This document shows, piece by piece, positions 3,168-20,272 of a stretch of 53,177 bases of DNA. This DNA is from a virus, in IMG/VR virus record IMGVR_UViG_3300020185_000063, positions 1-53,177 of that record; one strand, given 5' to 3'. The notes below the pieces were generated by a model that was not told where the DNA came from, did not search any database, and saw only the letters and a program-made list of their open reading frames with translations. Positions within the stretch are counted from its first letter, which is position 1; the number at the start of each line of letters is the position of its first letter. The position numbers and the translations under genes are program-made.

Positions 3168-4667
3168 ATGCAATTAGGTAGGTTCCAAGTAACTGACGCA
3201 AAAGCCTTTGCTGGTATGATTAATCCAGAGAACACTTTAGGTGCAATTTGGAAGACAGCTCCAACAAAGATTAATGATGCTATGATTAAACTTTTGGCAA
3301 TCAATAGAGGTAAGTCTCTTGAGAACATGCTATCAAAGTTTGATACTAAGCTAGTAGACAACGATAATGAGTACTTCTGGGAACTCATTGGTAGTTCTCG
3401 TAGAAACATTCCATTAGTAGAAGCAACTTTTAAAGGTGCTACTGTAACATCTGGTGACAACAACATCGGAGAAGGTGGACAAGAATTCCAACTAACATTT
3501 GGTGAACAATGGTTCTTCAAAGGAGAAATCATAGTTGGTGAAAGAAATGAAGCGTATCCAATCCGAGTATTAGATGATGGTTATCCATCAGGATCTCAAT
3601 GGATACATACTTGTGAGATCGCAGGTTCAGATAGATCAGGTATTCCTGGTTCTGAATTAACTTCAGGTAAGAGATTTAAGGAAGAGTTTGCTCCAGTAGG
3701 AAAAGGTCTTTCGAGAGAAGTAGGTGGTGTTCGTAGAGTAACTCCAGTTTCTATGAGAGGTGAGTTAACTACAATACGTATTGACCACAAACTTCCAGGT
3801 GACGCAACTAACAAGCAAGTTGTAATGGGTATTCCTGTTATCGACAAAGCTGGTAACAAGAAAGTATTTGGTGCATTAGCATTATACGAAGATTGGTTAG
3901 TTGAGCAAGAATTTTCTTTATACAAGAATAAATTCTTAATGTACGGTAAAACAAACAGAACTGCTGATGGTCAGTACCACAACAAAGATGTTTCAGGTCG
4001 TGCAATCAAAATTGGATCTGGTATCCGTGAGCAAATGGAGCAATCTAACACATTCTTCTACAACGAGTTCTCTATTGAGATGCTTGAGGAAATCCTTTTC
4101 GGATTATCAGAAGGTAAGTTAGGATTTGACCAACGTGTGTTTATCTTACGTACTGGTGAAAGAGGTGCTGCTGAATTCCACAAAGCTGTATTAACTACAA
4201 CTTCAGGATGGTCTGCAAATATATCTACTCCAGGAACTAATCCTGCAACAGTGAAGAATACAAACTCAGAATTACATAGCAATGCTATGGCGGCTGGATT
4301 CCAGTTTACTGAGTATATGGCACCAAATGGTGTAACAGTAAAATTAGAAGTTGATGACTTCTATGATGACAAGGTACGTAACACAATTAGAATCCCTGGT
4401 TCTAACGGTGTAGCTGAATCTTATCGTTATGACATCTTTTACATGGGTACAACTGAATCTCCAAACATTCAGAAGGTACAAGTTAAAGGTGCTGATGAGA
4501 TCAGAGGTTACCAATGGGGTTTCAGAAATCCATTTACTGGAGCTGTAAACAACGGTAACATGGGAACTTTAGAGGATAGTGGTACTATCACTAAATGGTG
4601 TCAATTAGGAGTTGTGGTTTATGACCCATCTCGTACAGCATCAATCATCCCTTACGTATTAGCGTAG
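3168..4667 (+). CDS. Major capsid protein (crAss-type, HK97 fold)
   Basis: The 499-aa product has the length and feel of crAss-like major capsid proteins. Recognisable family features run in order: an N-terminal MQLGRFQVTDAKAFAG, the PLVEATFKGATVTSGD segment, LTFGEQWFFKGEIIVGERNE, the YPIRVLDDGYP turn, and a long E-loop-like and spine-like middle with LYEDWLVEQEFSLYKNKFL. The C-terminal half is typical A-domain material, with LEEILFGLSEGKLGF and VFILRTGERGAAEFHKA. It follows the acidic scaffold-like gene and is followed at once by a strong hairpin terminator, consistent with very high expression. The coding region ends in four consecutive in-frame stops (TAG TGA TAA TAA). Its codons use C-ending and frequently used forms more than neighbouring genes do, also as expected for a highly expressed protein. 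Confidence 0.88.
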   Translation: MQLGRFQVTDAKAFAGMINPENTLGAIWKTAPTKINDAMIKLLAINRGKSLENMLSKFDTKLVDNDNEYFWELIGSSRRNIPLVEATFKGATVTSGDNNIGEGGQEFQLTFGEQWFFKGEIIVGERNEAYPIRVLDDGYPSGSQWIHTCEIAGSDRSGIPGSELTSGKRFKEEFAPVGKGLSREVGGVRRVTPVSMRGELTTIRIDHKLPGDATNKQVVMGIPVIDKAGNKKVFGALALYEDWLVEQEFSLYKNKFLMYGKTNRTADGQYHNKDVSGRAIKIGSGIREQMEQSNTFFYNEFSIEMLEEILFGLSEGKLGFDQRVFILRTGERGAAEFHKAVLTTTSGWSANISTPGTNPATVKNTNSELHSNAMAAGFQFTEYMAPNGVTVKLEVDDFYDDKVRNTIRIPGSNGVAESYRYDIFYMGTTESPNIQKVQVKGADEIRGYQWGFRNPFTGAVNNGNMGTLEDSGTITKWCQLGVVVYDPSRTASIIPYVLA

Positions 4668-6587: not shown

Positions 6588-7550
6588 ATGGGATTAGCCG
6601 GACAAAATCAGGTTAGACACATGTACGTAGGTACAGCAGACGTAGCAGACTTTGCAGCTTTAAAAGCTGGATCTGCAAACAGTTTAGTAATCTTAGGAGC
6701 TAACGGTGCTGCCGTGGCTGCTGGTGAAGATTTCAAGCTATTTCAAAAGGATGCACTAGGAAACATTATCTCTAGTGATACCATCAAAGCAGATAATGTA
6801 TTAGATGTACGCTCAGTAGCTTATACTGCAGCAGTAAATAAATTGGTAACTATCTCTGCGTTGACAGTTGATGCTAATTCATTATACACTGTTGAGATCT
6901 TGATTAATGGACATGGTTCATTATCTCCAGAAGATACATACTTAAAGCAAGGTTTTTACAAAGCTGTAACAGGTGATGATCAAGAAGCTGTTGTTGATGG
7001 TCTTATCGCATCATTAAATCGTAATTTCTCAAGAGAAGTAGGTGCAACTGCAACTACAAATCCTTACTTTACTTTTGCTAAAACTGGATCAGGTGCATCA
7101 GCAGCTCTTACAGTAGAAGGTAAACTTTACGGAGTAGGTTTTGATGGAGACAAGAGAACTAGAATTTACAATGACTTTACAGTAGATATTTCTGCTGATA
7201 CTTATCCAACTGTTACTGTTACTAACGAGCAGTTTGATGGAGTTGGTACTGGATACCAGGTTGTTGAAATGGAGTACTTCTTGCTAGGTGAAAGAGGAGA
7301 TACTTATCGTGAGATGGGTTACCCACACAACATCAACGGGCCAGCATTGGTTTCAACTGTTGGTGGAACTTATGACCTAATTGAAATTTCTTACTTCGAT
7401 GAAGGAAGAGATGAAGCAAAGAAGTCTAAGAAGAACTTAACGATTGCTATGCCAACTGCAGCAGTACCAAATGCTAATGTTAACTCTGTAATTACAGATT
7501 TAAACACTATCTTAGGTGCAGGTTCAGTAGACACGATTAAAGCAGCGTAG
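6588..7550 (+). CDS. Abundant virion protein, possibly head or tail decoration
   Basis: The 320-aa product is Gly/Ala/Thr/Val-rich and predicted mostly beta, without membrane segments or enzyme motifs. Segments such as GYQVVEMEYFLLGERGDTYREMGYP and TYDLIEISYFDEGRDEAKKS look like packed strands of a structural subunit. Three signs suggest abundant synthesis: the same leader element as the capsid gene, a GCGTAG ending as in the capsid gene, and a strong terminator 24 bases after the stop. Tail-tube-like, auxiliary capsid or ring protein are all possible. I do not recognise a defined family. Confidence 0.55.
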   Translation: MGLAGQNQVRHMYVGTADVADFAALKAGSANSLVILGANGAAVAAGEDFKLFQKDALGNIISSDTIKADNVLDVRSVAYTAAVNKLVTISALTVDANSLYTVEILINGHGSLSPEDTYLKQGFYKAVTGDDQEAVVDGLIASLNRNFSREVGATATTNPYFTFAKTGSGASAALTVEGKLYGVGFDGDKRTRIYNDFTVDISADTYPTVTVTNEQFDGVGTGYQVVEMEYFLLGERGDTYREMGYPHNINGPALVSTVGGTYDLIEISYFDEGRDEAKKSKKNLTIAMPTAAVPNANVNSVITDLNTILGAGSVDTIKAA

Positions 7551-7633: not shown

Positions 7634-8212
7634 ATGGCAATTAACGTAACAAAATTTGTAGTGTCTAACGACTTAAGCACTCTTGACCTAGAAGTTAATG
7701 TAACATCTGGACAAACAGTTACAGAGATTCTTTTGTGGAATGAGGATACATACAAAGATCCTTCTCAGGCTAAAGACTTATCTTCATTACTAGTGGGAAC
7801 TACTAACTCAGAAGATATTACAATAACTGCTGAAGATGCAGATTTAAGCAGTTTCTCAGGAATGTATTTTCTACAAATCACAACTAGTGAACCTGAAGCT
7901 GTAATAGTAGCAACTGTCAATCTTACTCAATATTATATTACCCAAGCCAAACTAATAGCTAATGTTGATTTATCATGTCTCAACTGTAACGCTAATTTTC
8001 AGAATGCATTATTATTCGATATGTACCTGGAGGCTACAAAGAACTCACTTATTCTTGGAAGATACCGAGATGCAATAGACAATTTAAATAAATTAATAAT
8101 TACGATCGATACATCTGATTGTGACTCTTGTAAGGACATACCTGCATTAGTTTCAACTGCAGGTAACATAGTTTCTGTTGGTGTACTTGATTGTGAGTTA
8201 ACACAAGTATAA
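7634..8212 (+). CDS. Predicted virion protein with Cys-rich C-terminal half
   Basis: The 192-aa product has a beta-rich, Thr/Ser-rich N-terminal half (about residues 1-100). The helical C-terminal half carries four cysteines in two CxxC pairs: SCLNCN near residues 114-118 and DCDSCKD near 167-172. A lone Cys lies near the end. The paired cysteines could bind a metal or form disulphides. The stop TAA is followed directly by the ATG of the next gene, and both lie upstream of the adhesin-like genes, so they may build the base of a fibre. I do not recognise the family. Confidence 0.5.
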   Translation: MAINVTKFVVSNDLSTLDLEVNVTSGQTVTEILLWNEDTYKDPSQAKDLSSLLVGTTNSEDITITAEDADLSSFSGMYFLQITTSEPEAVIVATVNLTQYYITQAKLIANVDLSCLNCNANFQNALLFDMYLEATKNSLILGRYRDAIDNLNKLIITIDTSDCDSCKDIPALVSTAGNIVSVGVLDCELTQV

Positions 8213-8440
8213 ATGAAAACTAAGGATGCTAGAGTATTTACTGAATCAGTTAAACTTGCTTCAGGTAGATTAGAAAATTATGGCGATGCTAGACTAAGTG
8301 GTATTCACCTTTTAAAGCTGATATATAAATACGCTTCTTACTCAACCACATACAATCAATTAAAAAGATTTGATTCAATGGTAAGCACATTACAACTTAC
8401 AGATCCATTAAAAGCACATTACAACTTACAGATCCATTAA
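8213..8440 (+). CDS. Small virion-region protein with frameshifted C-terminus
   Basis: The 75-aa product is basic and helical. Its last nine residues (KAHYNLQIH) are read from the second copy of a 28-bp tandem repeat (period 29) in a shifted frame. With a single repeat copy the frame would continue through DPLICVEKM into the gene at 8455, giving one fused protein. The N-terminal 66 residues therefore look like the genuine part. It directly abuts the preceding gene. The function is unknown; a tail or fibre partner is likely from position. Confidence 0.5.
   Translation: MKTKDARVFTESVKLASGRLENYGDARLSGIHLLKLIYKYASYSTTYNQLKRFDSMVSTLQLTDPLKAHYNLQIH
8383..8439. repeat. Tandem duplication of 28 bp, period 29
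   Basis: Two exact copies beginning AAGCACATTACAACTTACAG and ending GATCCATTA lie at 8383-8410 and 8412-8439, separated by one A. The period of 29 is not a multiple of three, so the duplication changes the reading frame and ends the gene at 8440. Either replication slippage in the phage or an assembly artefact could produce it. Confidence 0.95.
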
Positions 8441-8454
8441 TATGTGTTGAGAAG

Positions 8455-9198
8455 ATGGCTAGTAATACATCAGAGTATATTCAACCAGTAGGAACTGTAA
8501 CTGTTGGAGTTGATAATAATCAGGCTCCAGTATTAACTGATTCTGCGATAACAGTAGTTGATGGTGCGGAATTATACACATTCTCTTATAATGATTTATT
8601 CTCAGGGTATTCAGATCCAGATGGAAATGCATTCTCAGGATTTGTAATTAAGACACTTCCTGTAAATGGAGAATTAAAATACAATGGAGAAGCAGTAGTA
8701 GTGGGAAACTTCTATACAGATCCAACTTTACTAGTTTATAGTAAAGATTCTGACTCAGCTTATGTGACAGGCTTTACATATACAGCCTTTGATAATGACC
8801 CTCAACTGCCATTAGAATCTAATTTAGCAGCTTGTGAAGTAACAGTAGAAGCATTAGCAACAACAAATGAACCAGCAACCATCGGAGATAGAGCACAATA
8901 CGCAGGAAACAGAGTAACAACAGTATTTACTGTTGCAGACTTTACGACAGAAACAATAGCACCTTATTTTGATCCAGAAAACAATGACTTGGATGCAATT
9001 AGAATAGATGAAGTATCAACAGCTAACACAGGAGTGTATTATTATTATGCTAACCCTGTAACTGCTGGACAGGTTATTACCGCAGCAGAATTAAACTCTG
9101 GTGCTTTCTATCACATTGCTCCAGATGCCAATGGTGTTTCAACTGACTCCTTTAATGCGAGTGTTCGAGATACAGGGTCAATGATATGGGTAGATTAA
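8455..9198 (+). CDS. Cadherin-like repeat protein, probable fibre/adhesin part
   Basis: The 247-aa product has a short Thr/Ser-rich start and then two beta-sandwich repeats of about 100 residues. Repeat 1 runs from about residue 23 (NQAPVLTD... YSDPDGNAFSGFVIKTLP ... GELKYNGEAV). Repeat 2 runs from about 138 (VFTVADFTTETIAPYFDPEN ... TAGQVITAAELNSGAFYHIAP). These follow the Bacteroidota pattern 'DPdgd...i.i.tLP..G.L..nG..v..g..i....' seen in large surface adhesins. The frame is open upstream through to 8213 if one copy of the tandem repeat is removed, and two stops (TAA TAA) separate it from an in-frame open stretch downstream. The ATG at 8455 is therefore either a real separate start or an internal Met of a broken gene. 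Host-surface binding is inferred. Confidence 0.6.
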   Translation: MASNTSEYIQPVGTVTVGVDNNQAPVLTDSAITVVDGAELYTFSYNDLFSGYSDPDGNAFSGFVIKTLPVNGELKYNGEAVVVGNFYTDPTLLVYSKDSDSAYVTGFTYTAFDNDPQLPLESNLAACEVTVEALATTNEPATIGDRAQYAGNRVTTVFTVADFTTETIAPYFDPENNDLDAIRIDEVSTANTGVYYYYANPVTAGQVITAAELNSGAFYHIAPDANGVSTDSFNASVRDTGSMIWVD

Positions 9199-9203
9199 TA
9201 ACT

Positions 9204-9220
9204 GTTCAGTGATACTGAAC
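9204..9220 (+). other. Perfect 7-bp hairpin just after a double stop
   Basis: GTTCAGT (9204-9210) and ACTGAAC (9214-9220) flank the triloop GAT, starting two bases after the second of two in-frame stops (9196-9201). No T-tract follows. Because the reading frame beyond it stays open into the next repeat gene, it could be a weak terminator or a readthrough-stimulating structure. Confidence 0.45.
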
Positions 9221-9243
9221 ATAATAAAAATAATGAACAAACA

Positions 9244-9987
9244 ATGTTATACACGGTAACTAATAGTGGCTTACAGAATGGTAGGCCAACACAAATAGGT
9301 CAGAATACAATACCTAATATTGATTTAGGTGCAACTCATGTATTCACAATAGCTAATTTCACGACTGAAACAACTCCTCAGTATTCCGATCCTGAAGGAG
9401 ATGCTATGGCTTACATTGAAATATTAACTCTTCCTTCAGATGGAACTCTTAAATTAAATGGAGTAGCTGTAACGTTGAATCAACAAATATTTGCTGGTCA
9501 AATTACAACAGGAAACTTTGTATATGAAGCTCCTGCTACTGGAACTGCACAAGGGTATTCAGTTAATTTTCAATTCGACGCGGCCGATGTAGGATCTAAT
9601 TCATTAAGTGGATTAAATACAGGTTTTATGTTTATTGGAGTAGATGGTGTTGAGAATTTACCTCCTGATGTTATAGGTGACAAAACTATAAGTGTTCCTT
9701 TTGGAGATACTTATGTTTACTCTATGGCTGATTTTACAACAGGTACTACACCAGCTTATAATGATCCAGAAGGGGATCCACCATCTAAGTTAAAGATATT
9801 GGATTTACCAGATAGAGGCACTCTTGTATTTAATGGAACAAATGTTTCTGTTAATCAAGAGATTAATGCATCTGAAGTTAATGCAGGTTATTTAACATGG
9901 GTTCCAGACTTGATTGATAATCTAGCCGTAAATACAACGTTTAATTTTGCTGTCTCTGACACAGGCAGTGGGCAATTCAGTTCATAG
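9244..9987 (+). CDS. Cadherin-like repeat protein, second copy
   Basis: The 247-aa product has two repeats of the same kind as the preceding gene. The first spans about residues 15-130 (VFTIANFTTETTPQYSDPEG, LPSDGTLKLNGVAVTLNQQI). The second spans about 137-247 (YSMADFTTGTTPAYNDPEGD, LPDRGTLVFNGTNVSVNQEI). The repeats here are closer to each other than to those in the preceding gene. It is in frame with the gene at 8455, with only two stops and a 45-bp linker between. Its TAG stop (9985-9987) is followed one base later by the ATG of the next gene. A role as tail-fibre or appendage stalk that binds host surface glycan or protein is inference. Confidence 0.62.
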   Translation: MLYTVTNSGLQNGRPTQIGQNTIPNIDLGATHVFTIANFTTETTPQYSDPEGDAMAYIEILTLPSDGTLKLNGVAVTLNQQIFAGQITTGNFVYEAPATGTAQGYSVNFQFDAADVGSNSLSGLNTGFMFIGVDGVENLPPDVIGDKTISVPFGDTYVYSMADFTTGTTPAYNDPEGDPPSKLKILDLPDRGTLVFNGTNVSVNQEINASEVNAGYLTWVPDLIDNLAVNTTFNFAVSDTGSGQFSS

Positions 9988-10463: not shown

Positions 10464-11591
10464 ATGTCAAACGATAAAGAATTAACTGCTAAAGAAAACA
10501 ACGAGTTAGATACAGTTAAGAAGTTTCTTCGAGAAAAAAGAGGATACTTAAAAAAAGGAAACGGAGCATGTGCTTACGCATTAATGAGAAAGTACAATGA
10601 GGCACATTCATTTAAAATTATCAAAAGAGCAAAGAAAGAAGTAAAGAAAGAGATTAAAGAAAGCAATACTGAAAGGATTTCAAGTAATTTAAACACAGGT
10701 GATGTAAAAATTACTAGAAGTATTGCAGAAGATTTTAGAGATCATTGCGTTGAGAATAGACAAAAACTAGAGAACACACCATTTGCTCCTACATTAGTTA
10801 AGAGGAAAAATCCAAAACTAGTACCTACTCCATCAATTGCAGATCAGGAAGGAATGCACATTCTATTAGGGTGTAATCACGTTCCATTCCACAACAAAAG
10901 ATTACATGCGGGCATTAGAAGATTAATGCGTGATTATAAATACAACATAAAAGGATTTCACTTAATGGGTGATTTTGCTGATATAAATACTTTATCTTCA
11001 CATGATAAAGGAAAATTCACAGCAGTGCCTGGATTAACTTTAGATATGGAATATGATGCTTGTAATGAAGAGTTAGATCTCTTTGAAGCAGAATTACCTT
11101 CTGGAGTTTGGAAGACTTACTTATATGGCAACCATGAAGACAGACACAATAGGTGGATGAATAATATGGATAATGCCAAAACACCTTTACTTTCTCCAAT
11201 GGACGGAATGCTATTAGAGGATAGAGGTTATCATGTAAAGAATAAATGGTCACAAGATTTCTTTAAGCTTGGGAATGATTTTGAAATATTCCACGGAATA
11301 TACTTCAGTATTCACAATGCTAAAGCTCACTTAGATAAGTTGAGAACATCTTGTGCATACGTACACACACATCGTATCCAGAACTATCGTGAAGGAACTA
11401 TGTCTGCGTATAATATTGGATCTTGTGCAGACTTCTGGTCAGCAGCATTTGGTTATGCTACTCGTCCAATGAAAGCACAATGGGCTAATGGGTTTGCAAT
11501 TAATATGATTGATGCTCAAGGAAGAAGTAATGTAACACAAATCTATGTTAATCCAGATGGAACATTCTGGTTTGGTGGTAGATTATATTAA
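10464..11591 (+). CDS. Calcineurin-like metallophosphoesterase with altered first motif
   Basis: The 375-aa product has a charged helical N-terminal extension (about residues 1-110, rich in Lys and Glu) and a metallophosphoesterase core (about 128-360). Metal-binding motifs are in order: HLMGDFAD (Gly169, Asp170, Asp173), GNHEDR (222-227), His278 in FHGIY, and HTHR (301-304). The first motif, normally D-x-H, reads C137-N138-H139 (GCNHVPFHN), so the aspartate that bridges metal 1 is replaced by cysteine. The enzyme may be weakened, use a different metal or be structural. It has its own promoter and sits between the fibre genes and the ring/muzzle genes, so it may be carried in the virion. Phosphodiesterase activity on nucleic acid, nucleotide or host surface phosphate is possible; the substrate is unknown. 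Confidence 0.72.
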   Translation: MSNDKELTAKENNELDTVKKFLREKRGYLKKGNGACAYALMRKYNEAHSFKIIKRAKKEVKKEIKESNTERISSNLNTGDVKITRSIAEDFRDHCVENRQKLENTPFAPTLVKRKNPKLVPTPSIADQEGMHILLGCNHVPFHNKRLHAGIRRLMRDYKYNIKGFHLMGDFADINTLSSHDKGKFTAVPGLTLDMEYDACNEELDLFEAELPSGVWKTYLYGNHEDRHNRWMNNMDNAKTPLLSPMDGMLLEDRGYHVKNKWSQDFFKLGNDFEIFHGIYFSIHNAKAHLDKLRTSCAYVHTHRIQNYREGTMSAYNIGSCADFWSAAFGYATRPMKAQWANGFAINMIDAQGRSNVTQIYVNPDGTFWFGGRLY

Positions 11592-17646: not shown

Positions 17647-17754
17647 ATGCGTCATAACAAGGAACAATTTAAAAGTATATTAAAACTGCTAGGAGGCTCT
17701 GTATTTGTCGGAGCTTTCGGCTTTGCAACAGCATGGTCAAATCGCATGTATTAA
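17647..17754 (+). CDS. Possible 35-aa membrane peptide
   Basis: ATG at 17647 opens a 35-aa frame with a basic N-terminus (MRHNKEQFK) and one hydrophobic segment of about 20 residues containing LLGGSVFVGAFGFATAW, then SNRMY and TAA. It fills most of the 187-bp gap between the muzzle gene and the first cargo gene. It could be a small holin-like or accessory membrane protein. However, it has no Shine-Dalgarno sequence, and the predicted transcription start coincides with its ATG, so it may instead be part of the leader for the cargo operon. Confidence 0.4.
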   Translation: MRHNKEQFKSILKLLGGSVFVGAFGFATAWSNRMY

Positions 17755-17779
17755 CAGTTAAGCATCAAAAAATTAAACC

Positions 17780-20272
17780 TTGGAAATAAATAATAATCCA
17801 AATAAAAAATCTAAAGAAACAGCCTCTCTGAATAGGGAGGCTTTCAAGCATGCAATAGGTATGTTGGAGTCTAGTGGTGGAAAAAAATTAGATAACCCAA
17901 CATCATCTGCAGCAGGTAAGTATCATTTCTTATATAGTTTGATAAAGAAAGATCCTGATATGAAAGGTATTTCGAAACGTCAGTTTATAGGTGATCCAGA
18001 ACTGCAAGAGAAAATTATGGATAAAGCTCTCGATGGAAAATTGGAGGGATTTACATACGGTGAAGGATATGCAAAGAAGCTAATAAATAAATATCAGTCT
18101 GATGCTGACGTTAATGATGTATCAGCTCTTATTCACTTCCTCGGCCCACAAGGGACTGATGATTATCTTAGTAACCCAGATAGCTACGTAGTTCCCGGAA
18201 CAAATTTATCTGGTCAAGAATATGTATCTAAGTTTAGAAAACATTTTGATTCATTTACACCACCTGAGTCTAAGCCTGAACCTATACCTGAACCAAAGAG
18301 ATCTTTGTTTTCAGATAATATGAAAAAGAATTTACCAGTAAGAGAAATGGTAGCAGAGAGTACTTCTATTGCTCAACCTCAAATGAAACAAATACCAAAT
18401 ATTAATCAGTTTCTTGAAGGTGGTCAAATTAGTGGTCAAGTAGGTAGTAAAATAACTGGAGATGCTAGTGATTTGGTTACTATGTTTGAGAATGGTGGTA
18501 GCCACGAACAAAATTCATTAGGTGGTATTCCTCAAGGAACAGGATCTAATGGCAAGCCTAATCTTGTAGAAGAGGGTGAGACTAAATGGAATGATTATAT
18601 CTTCTCTAATGCAATATCACTTGACGGAAGTTACGATATTAGTGGACAAAAAGGAAATGTCTTTAAGGACGGGGGAAAGCTTGGTGGTAAAAAGAAAGGT
18701 AAAACAACATCTGAAAGTAATGAAATTGGACAGTCAAAACCAATGACTAGTGCACTAAGAAACATGCTTCCTTTACCACAGAATGGAGCTCAATTACTTG
18801 CATCACTTGCAAATGAAGATAGCACATATACTACTAAAGATGGTGGTTCAAAGGCAAATGAACACTTATATAGAAGTGTGAGGAATGCAGTAAAGAGAAC
18901 TGGAAAAAATAAAGGTGGAACTGAGTATAAGGATTATAGTCCACAAATAGACAATGATTTAAACTCATTAAGAATGAATGCTGCAGATATGGCATTAGGT
19001 AGTGTATTATCTCCTGAGCTAGAAGCTGCTACAACATACGGAAGAGTATCTTATGATTTTGATCCAAAAACCGGCAATGTAAAAATATACGATACTTATG
19101 ACTTTAATAAGACTCCAGGCGGTAAAGGTGTTTACTCTAATATAAGATCTGCTGCAGGTAATGCAAGTAAGGGAAAATTAGATTCAACTCCAAAGCTAAT
19201 TGGAGAATTCAATATGAATGACGATCCAGATGATGTTAAATTTATGGATGTAGTAAATAATGTGCTTAACCCTATTGACGCATTGGACATTGATTATAGT
19301 TCAATAAAAAAAGCCACTAACAAAGCAAGTGAAGTAGGTAATAAGATATATGATGGAGCGAGTAAGGTGGGTAATGAACTTTATAAAAAAGGTAATAAAC
19401 TTTATAGAAAGGGAAAAGAATTCATCAACTCGTTTGAAGATGGAGGTGAACTGATGACAGGCGGCAAGGATAAGAAAAAAAATACTTCTTCTGAAATGGG
19501 CCCTATAGAACCTGAGTCTGCAAAGTATCCATTAAAGTTTACAAAGACTCAATCTAAGTTTCACAAAAAAGGTAGTGATATGTATGTTGATGATATCCGC
19601 GATAAATACATGGGTTCTACAATTCCGTTCCAGAACACAGTTCCAGAAGGAGAAGTTGATTTTCAAGGAGCAGTTCAAGATGAAAGTGCTAAGGCATTTT
19701 TAGAAAGATATAATAATACTTGGACTCGCAATAAAATGAAGGAGCAAGCAGGATTAACTGATTATGATATTGACAATATGATATTAAGAGGATTGAATGC
19801 TACTAAACAAGTTGGAGGTAATGTGCCAGGATCTAAAGGATCTTATGATTCTAAAGAAAATGTAGTAAAAATGGATCCAGAACATGAACACAATAAAGAT
19901 GCTGAGACTCACGAAAGAGTACATGCTTCAGGATTTGATGCAGCTCAAGGATTGAATTTACTCAATGTGTTAGGTAATTCATTCCAGCAAGGTGATAGTA
20001 GAAACTTTTTAAAGAAATTCTCTCCTGAAACTTTAAGGTATTTAAATATGCCTCACGAAGCATACGGAAACTTTGTTGAGTTTAGAGAGAAGTTGGGATT
20101 AAAACCTGGTCAAAAAATAACTCCAAAAAAGTTAAAGAAATTAGTAAAAGAAAAAGATGCTACTATGGAAAATTTCTATCGAGCATTTAATGATGAAAAT
20201 ATAACAGAAGCACTAAACACTATTGCTATGCAAGACAATGGCAATAGTATTAACGATTATAAAATAGCATAA
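17780..20272 (+). CDS. Virion cargo protein with lytic transglycosylase-like and zincin-like motifs
   Basis: The 830-aa product starts at TTG. The first in-frame ATG is codon 28 and would remove the front of the catalytic helix, and a stop lies two codons upstream of the TTG. Residues 18-150 resemble a soluble lytic transglycosylase: Glu30 in IGMLESSGG, then SSAAGKYHFLYSL. The middle contains FENGGSHEQNSLGG followed by NLVEEGETKWNDYIFS, a motif I associate with crAss-like cargo proteins, and long disordered Lys/Gly stretches. Residues 711-715 read HERVH inside ETHERVHASGFD, the zinc metallopeptidase signature HExxH. It probably digests peptidoglycan during entry and may process itself or other cargo. 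A hairpin (17821-17842) lies just inside the coding region. Confidence 0.7.
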   Translation: MEINNNPNKKSKETASLNREAFKHAIGMLESSGGKKLDNPTSSAAGKYHFLYSLIKKDPDMKGISKRQFIGDPELQEKIMDKALDGKLEGFTYGEGYAKKLINKYQSDADVNDVSALIHFLGPQGTDDYLSNPDSYVVPGTNLSGQEYVSKFRKHFDSFTPPESKPEPIPEPKRSLFSDNMKKNLPVREMVAESTSIAQPQMKQIPNINQFLEGGQISGQVGSKITGDASDLVTMFENGGSHEQNSLGGIPQGTGSNGKPNLVEEGETKWNDYIFSNAISLDGSYDISGQKGNVFKDGGKLGGKKKGKTTSESNEIGQSKPMTSALRNMLPLPQNGAQLLASLANEDSTYTTKDGGSKANEHLYRSVRNAVKRTGKNKGGTEYKDYSPQIDNDLNSLRMNAADMALGSVLSPELEAATTYGRVSYDFDPKTGNVKIYDTYDFNKTPGGKGVYSNIRSAAGNASKGKLDSTPKLIGEFNMNDDPDDVKFMDVVNNVLNPIDALDIDYSSIKKATNKASEVGNKIYDGASKVGNELYKKGNKLYRKGKEFINSFEDGGELMTGGKDKKKNTSSEMGPIEPESAKYPLKFTKTQSKFHKKGSDMYVDDIRDKYMGSTIPFQNTVPEGEVDFQGAVQDESAKAFLERYNNTWTRNKMKEQAGLTDYDIDNMILRGLNATKQVGGNVPGSKGSYDSKENVVKMDPEHEHNKDAETHERVHASGFDAAQGLNLLNVLGNSFQQGDSRNFLKKFSPETLRYLNMPHEAYGNFVEFREKLGLKPGQKITPKKLKKLVKEKDATMENFYRAFNDENITEALNTIAMQDNGNSINDYKIA

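Follow-up and report, generated by a model that had tools for sequence, protein, structure and literature searches.

A 29-bp tandem duplication breaks a conserved virion-protein gene in a single record of a crAss-like phage

The sequence analyzed here (the window) is a single IMG/VR virus record of 53,177 bases, derived from environmental DNA, in which a perfect 29-bp tandem duplication lies inside a gene for a virion protein. We consider it very probable that this duplication is a one-off accidental lesion of what is normally a single open reading frame (ORF) of about 320 aa, and not an evolved device. Intact, the gene encodes a predicted three-helix base, which has the position of tail hub protein B, and then two cadherin/Ig-like domains. 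At codon 67 the duplication shifts the reading frame, and translation stops nine codons on, severing the base from the rest of the protein. If the duplication is real, the phage would make a shortened base peptide, together at most with a 247-aa fragment whose translation starts inefficiently; reversion by slippage would then be possible, as for any tandem duplication, without a regulated switch. The features of the locus are collected in Table 1.

Table 1. Features at and around the duplication site (window coordinates)
Feature	Position	Strand	Basis
Crassvirus auxiliary capsid protein	6588..7550	+	PF25650, E 3e-35
192-aa protein homologous to crAss001 tail hub protein A (gp38); immediately precedes the broken gene	7634..8212	+	Profile-profile comparison, synteny
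5' fragment of the broken gene, 75-aa ORF	8213..8440	+	ORF; 42-71% identity to the N terminus of 14 relatives; helices predicted
Duplication copy 1, 29 bp, exact	8383..8411	+	Sequence AAGCACATTACAACTTACAGATCCATTAA
Duplication copy 2, 29/29 identical	8412..8440	+	Upstream frame stops at its final three bases
3' fragment of the broken gene: conserved ICVEK junction and 247-aa ORF with linker and two cadherin/Ig-like domains	8440..9198	+	ORF, phrog_22884 (1e-29), structure model
Next gene, intact: cadherin/Ig-like paralogue of 247 aa, a virion protein; relatives likewise have it as a gene of its own	9244..9987	+	phrog_22884

The two adjacent units are identical at 29 of 29 bases (Tandem Repeats Finder score, 116). 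They had been described preliminarily as two exact 28-bp copies with a period of 29; the duplication is indeed exact, but the unit is 29 bases long and the extra A belongs to it. The self-match of the window at a shift of 29 is exactly 29 long, so flanking microhomology is absent on both sides. No other exact tandem repeat in the window comes near it in length. Because 20 first-order Markov simulations of the window, scanned at shifts of 10 to 99 bases, reach a longest exact repeat of only 11 to 13 bases, the duplication is not due to chance. No further exact tandem duplication with a period of at least 10 was found in the 53-kb window, and relatives, over about 322 kb of their locus sequence, have none with a period above 13. 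A search for slippage-promoting DNA structure near the repeat gave an unremarkable local fold (z, -0.19). As the preliminary description held, the event is recent, because the copies are 100% identical and both gene pieces otherwise retain their coding character, third codon positions being the most variable in each. Elsewhere in the window, a short degenerate AAAGAAAG-type repeat (10631-10679) lies in the 5' part of a metallophosphoesterase gene (10464-11591), in a region that is variable among relatives.

Since 29 is not a multiple of three, the number of copies inside the ORF sets the reading frame. The stop codon of the upstream frame, TAA at 8438-8440, lies within copy 2, confirming the earlier statement that the duplication shifts the frame and ends the gene at 8440. 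The first 66 aa of the resulting 75-aa ORF constitute the conserved three-helix N-terminal domain, and the closing 9 aa (KAHYNLQIH), which the frameshift produces, are not conserved. No stop interrupts the downstream frame within copy 2; it reads ..STLQLTDPLICVEKM.. / ..STLQLTDPLICVEKMASN.., and carries the 247-aa ORF, which spans 8455-9198 from its first ATG at 8455. Removal of one copy joins the two frames, as had been noted before (8455 - 8213 - 29 = 213 = 3 x 71). The duplicated segment occupies codons 57 to 66, that is, the end of the third helix; therefore, the frameshift parts the base from the Ig-like portion. The run of four A residues at 8410-8413 (A-AAA-G at the junction) arises only through the duplication.

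We searched for homologues with the two gene pieces separately and with the intact genes of relatives. A single ORF of 317 to 327 aa runs across the site in all 14 distinct relatives (viral contigs) that have both parts. Around the break point, residues L60, Q61, I67, and C68 are invariant in the alignment of the relatives, and an “ICxE” motif is conserved at the junction both in these and in g083 of phi14:2, a cultured Cellulophaga phage. The g083 protein (YP_008242307.1, 348 aa) is annotated as a virion structural protein and as detected by MS/MS in virions. It is colinear with the family of single-ORF relatives end to end (308 columns; E, 4.5e-33) and has a helical N terminus ending in ..DIC.., whereas its gene is intact, without the duplication, and is separated from the hub A homologue g087 by g084-g086. 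The repeat at the duplication site is absent from all 14 distinct relatives and from g083. Because all of these keep one uninterrupted protein (317 to 348 aa) without the repeat, the split is derived, recent, and private to this record, and the one-ORF state is ancestral. Thus, the comparison with homologous genes of related phages that the preliminary description called for found no relative with two genes, and an arrangement of two native genes was ruled out. Position 8400 is the only site at which the ORF of a relative maps onto two adjacent frames of the window (seven relatives), in a frame-jump test that covered the 41.8 kb of the window lying under ORFs of relatives and that detects only breaks whose halves are close together. 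Searches of viral_contigs, from which records very close to the window may be missing, for a second record with the exact two-copy junction or with a degenerate one-copy junction pattern gave no matches. The one match in genome_contigs, a MAG contig (L046), begins inside the gene and stops short of the site.

Judged from its gene content, the phage is crAss-like (Crassvirales), because a crassvirus auxiliary capsid protein (PF25650) is encoded at 6588..7550. The major head protein is encoded at 3168-4667, a match at the muzzle position was also found, and the syntenic order MCP-ring-AUX-hub A-...-ring-muzzle, compared with crAss001 and phi14:2, is present. The profile of the 192-aa protein and its relatives aligned along 154 columns with the gp38 proteins from ten crassviruses (hhalign E, 8e-7; probability, 91.7). 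Across 8871-9987, the family phrog_22884 is matched twice, by the broken gene's second Ig-like domain and by the gene after it (9244-9987), which suggests that an Ig-like virion gene may have been duplicated in this lineage.

The broken gene comes directly after hub A, where crAss001 and related phages have tail hub protein B (gp39). The locus thereby resembles that of crAss001: its upstream gene corresponds to gp38, and the N-terminal domain encoded by the broken gene stands where gp39 does in the genome. The difference is that gp39 has 114 aa and no Ig-like domains. In profile-profile comparison (hhalign), the match between the base domain and the gp39 family was not significant (E, 0.41 to 0.96). 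The mean global-alignment score of the two was about 5.6 standard deviations over shuffled sequences, a score that the helical pattern alone could give. A cysteine in the base domain stands at a place similar to that in gp39, near the end of the helical part. Fold searches with the model of the three-helix base gave no significant match, and gp39 (7QOJ) was absent from the Foldseek and VIA matches. The cysteine register and the alignment score are no more than suggestive of a link to gp39, so that the domain is best described as having the tail-hub-B position. The gene following the hub A homologue in a distant crassvirus contig (L030, 4079-4462) has an N-terminal domain that resembles the base (hhalign E, 0.0017, ending in ..DDIC..), a different C terminus, and no Ig-like domains, hinting that the base domain may carry exchangeable C-terminal modules. 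In another contig (L062, 751-1404; cr106_1), the gp39 homologue has 218 aa, about twice the usual length, with a C-terminal extension; the closely related cr112_1 encodes one of 90 aa.

For the protein of an intact relative (L006), AlphaFold2 predicts, with a mean pLDDT of 76, three helices at residues 3 to 63, a disordered linker at residues 73 to 90, and two beta-rich domains. Foldseek relates the beta-rich domains to cadherin repeats and to phi14:2 structural proteins, and VIA-align gave middling Z values (7 to 8) to cadherins and phage collar proteins. Ig/cadherin matches of the 3' fragment in Pfam were sub-threshold only, and a PDB sequence search with the fused family returned only weak, unrelated matches. 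The gene product is a virion base or hub protein and not a demonstrated host-range adhesin. The earlier “fibre” or adhesin reading is not upheld, since the gene lies at the crassvirus tail-hub-B position and the lesion strikes the base domain and not the tip. Hub protein B of crAss001 extends its C-terminal residues 67 to 107 into the adjacent hub and thereby locks the collar together (PMC10172136). Should the analogy with this protein hold, the lesion would be a structural rather than a receptor-binding change. A short N-terminal anchor followed by an Ig-like part also occurs in the dimeric head fibre protein of crAss001, gp29 (PMC10172136); the broken gene shares this layout but has another gene position and two Ig-like domains against one in gp29. 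Single-sequence hhalign found no similarity between the broken gene and gp29, including its N-terminal capsid-binding segment.

We put at about even the chance that the duplication is a library or assembly artefact and that the phage itself has one copy, a 29-base overlap of reads or contig ends having been joined untrimmed or a chimeric read having been retained at thin coverage. Exact copies with zero flanking homology are the trace expected from an untrimmed overlap, unlike slippage between short repeats, and the lesion is found in no relative and sits in a conserved virion-protein gene that is whole in all of them. However, the entire repeat is only 58 bp, for which read-spanning k-mers usually avoid such errors, and neither ambiguous bases nor other signs of a join were noticed. 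The closest relative also varies gene by gene without a lasting switch at the site, on which ground a chimeric join there was rejected. A literature search on false short duplications in metagenome assemblies found nothing directly useful.

Somewhat less probable, but still a serious candidate, is a real and recent frameshift duplication, in which the dominant genotype, or a single amplified one, carried a loss-of-function allele of the hub gene. This would agree with the perfect copies and the otherwise intact coding sequence, and spontaneous tandem duplications within ORFs are documented in bacteria, as cited via PMC4022640 (references 28 and 33). A different lesion in the same record, the remnant of a gene with an internal deletion at 17647-17791 (+), which was found by means other than the frame-jump test, shows that the lineage does lose genes through indels and speaks to some degree for a real mutation. 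On the other hand, every relative retains the gene and the phi14:2 homologue is a virion component, so that a broken allele would be expected to be unfit and rarely the majority. The gene represented by the remnant encodes 238 to 241 aa in two relatives (L049 and L051). In the window only a few bases separate its first ~30 codons (MRHNKEQFKSILKLLGGSVFVGAFGFATAW) from its last ~12 codons, which lie in another frame (VLTVKHQKIKPWK, stop), and about 195 codons are missing; two further relatives (L053 and L055) do not have the gene at all (55-bp gap).

That the duplication is a phase-variation device for host range, as the preliminary description proposed, with slippage between one and two copies toggling the full-length protein, we regard as improbable. 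Copy number does change the reading frame, and reversible tandem duplications work in this way in pneumococcal capsule genes, as cited via PMC4022640 (references 28 and 33). For cap8E, tts, and the type 3 locus, spontaneous tandem duplications with phase variation have been reported (Waite et al. 2001, 2003, via PMC4022640). The phage duplication resembles these in being a perfect tandem duplication within an ORF that shifts the frame and is reversible in principle; however, phase variation is reported there, whereas the phage duplication is known from one record and in one form. Moreover, the site has no repeat in the 14 relatives, hence no conserved contingency tract; there are only two copies, with unmatched flanks; and the junction searches in viral_contigs found no second allele. 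From its genome position and conserved base domain, the protein looks like a structural hub (PMC10172136), and one would expect its loss to harm the virion, not to alter host range. A literature search on slippage duplications in phage tail genes found nothing directly useful. We give a marginally lower chance still to a real, reversible genotype that toggles the tail-hub protein between a full-length form, its two Ig-like domains included, and the helical base alone and so yields mixed virions.

Least likely of all, and by our estimate very improbable, is translation of both the 75-aa and the 247-aa ORFs, by re-initiation at 8455 or by -1 frameshifting at the run of four A residues: the frame of the 247-aa ORF extends without a stop back across copy 2, the stop at 8440 lies 14 bases from the ATG, and the junction reads A-AAA-G, but GAGAAG abuts the start codon without proper spacing, the final nine residues of the 75-aa ORF are unconserved, no relative has two separate genes, and the four-A run was made only by the duplication itself.

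The accidental lesion thus remains our preferred reading, and for annotation it means that such records should not be taken as having two genes at this site. If a two-state population were true, it would be the first sign, in the material examined, of slippage-driven switching of a virion protein in a very abundant phage group. Even then, such a finding would add one more case to a known phenomenon, the phase variation by tandem duplication reported for pneumococcal capsule genes (via PMC4022640). The fused protein is a conserved crassvirus virion component at the tail-hub-B position.
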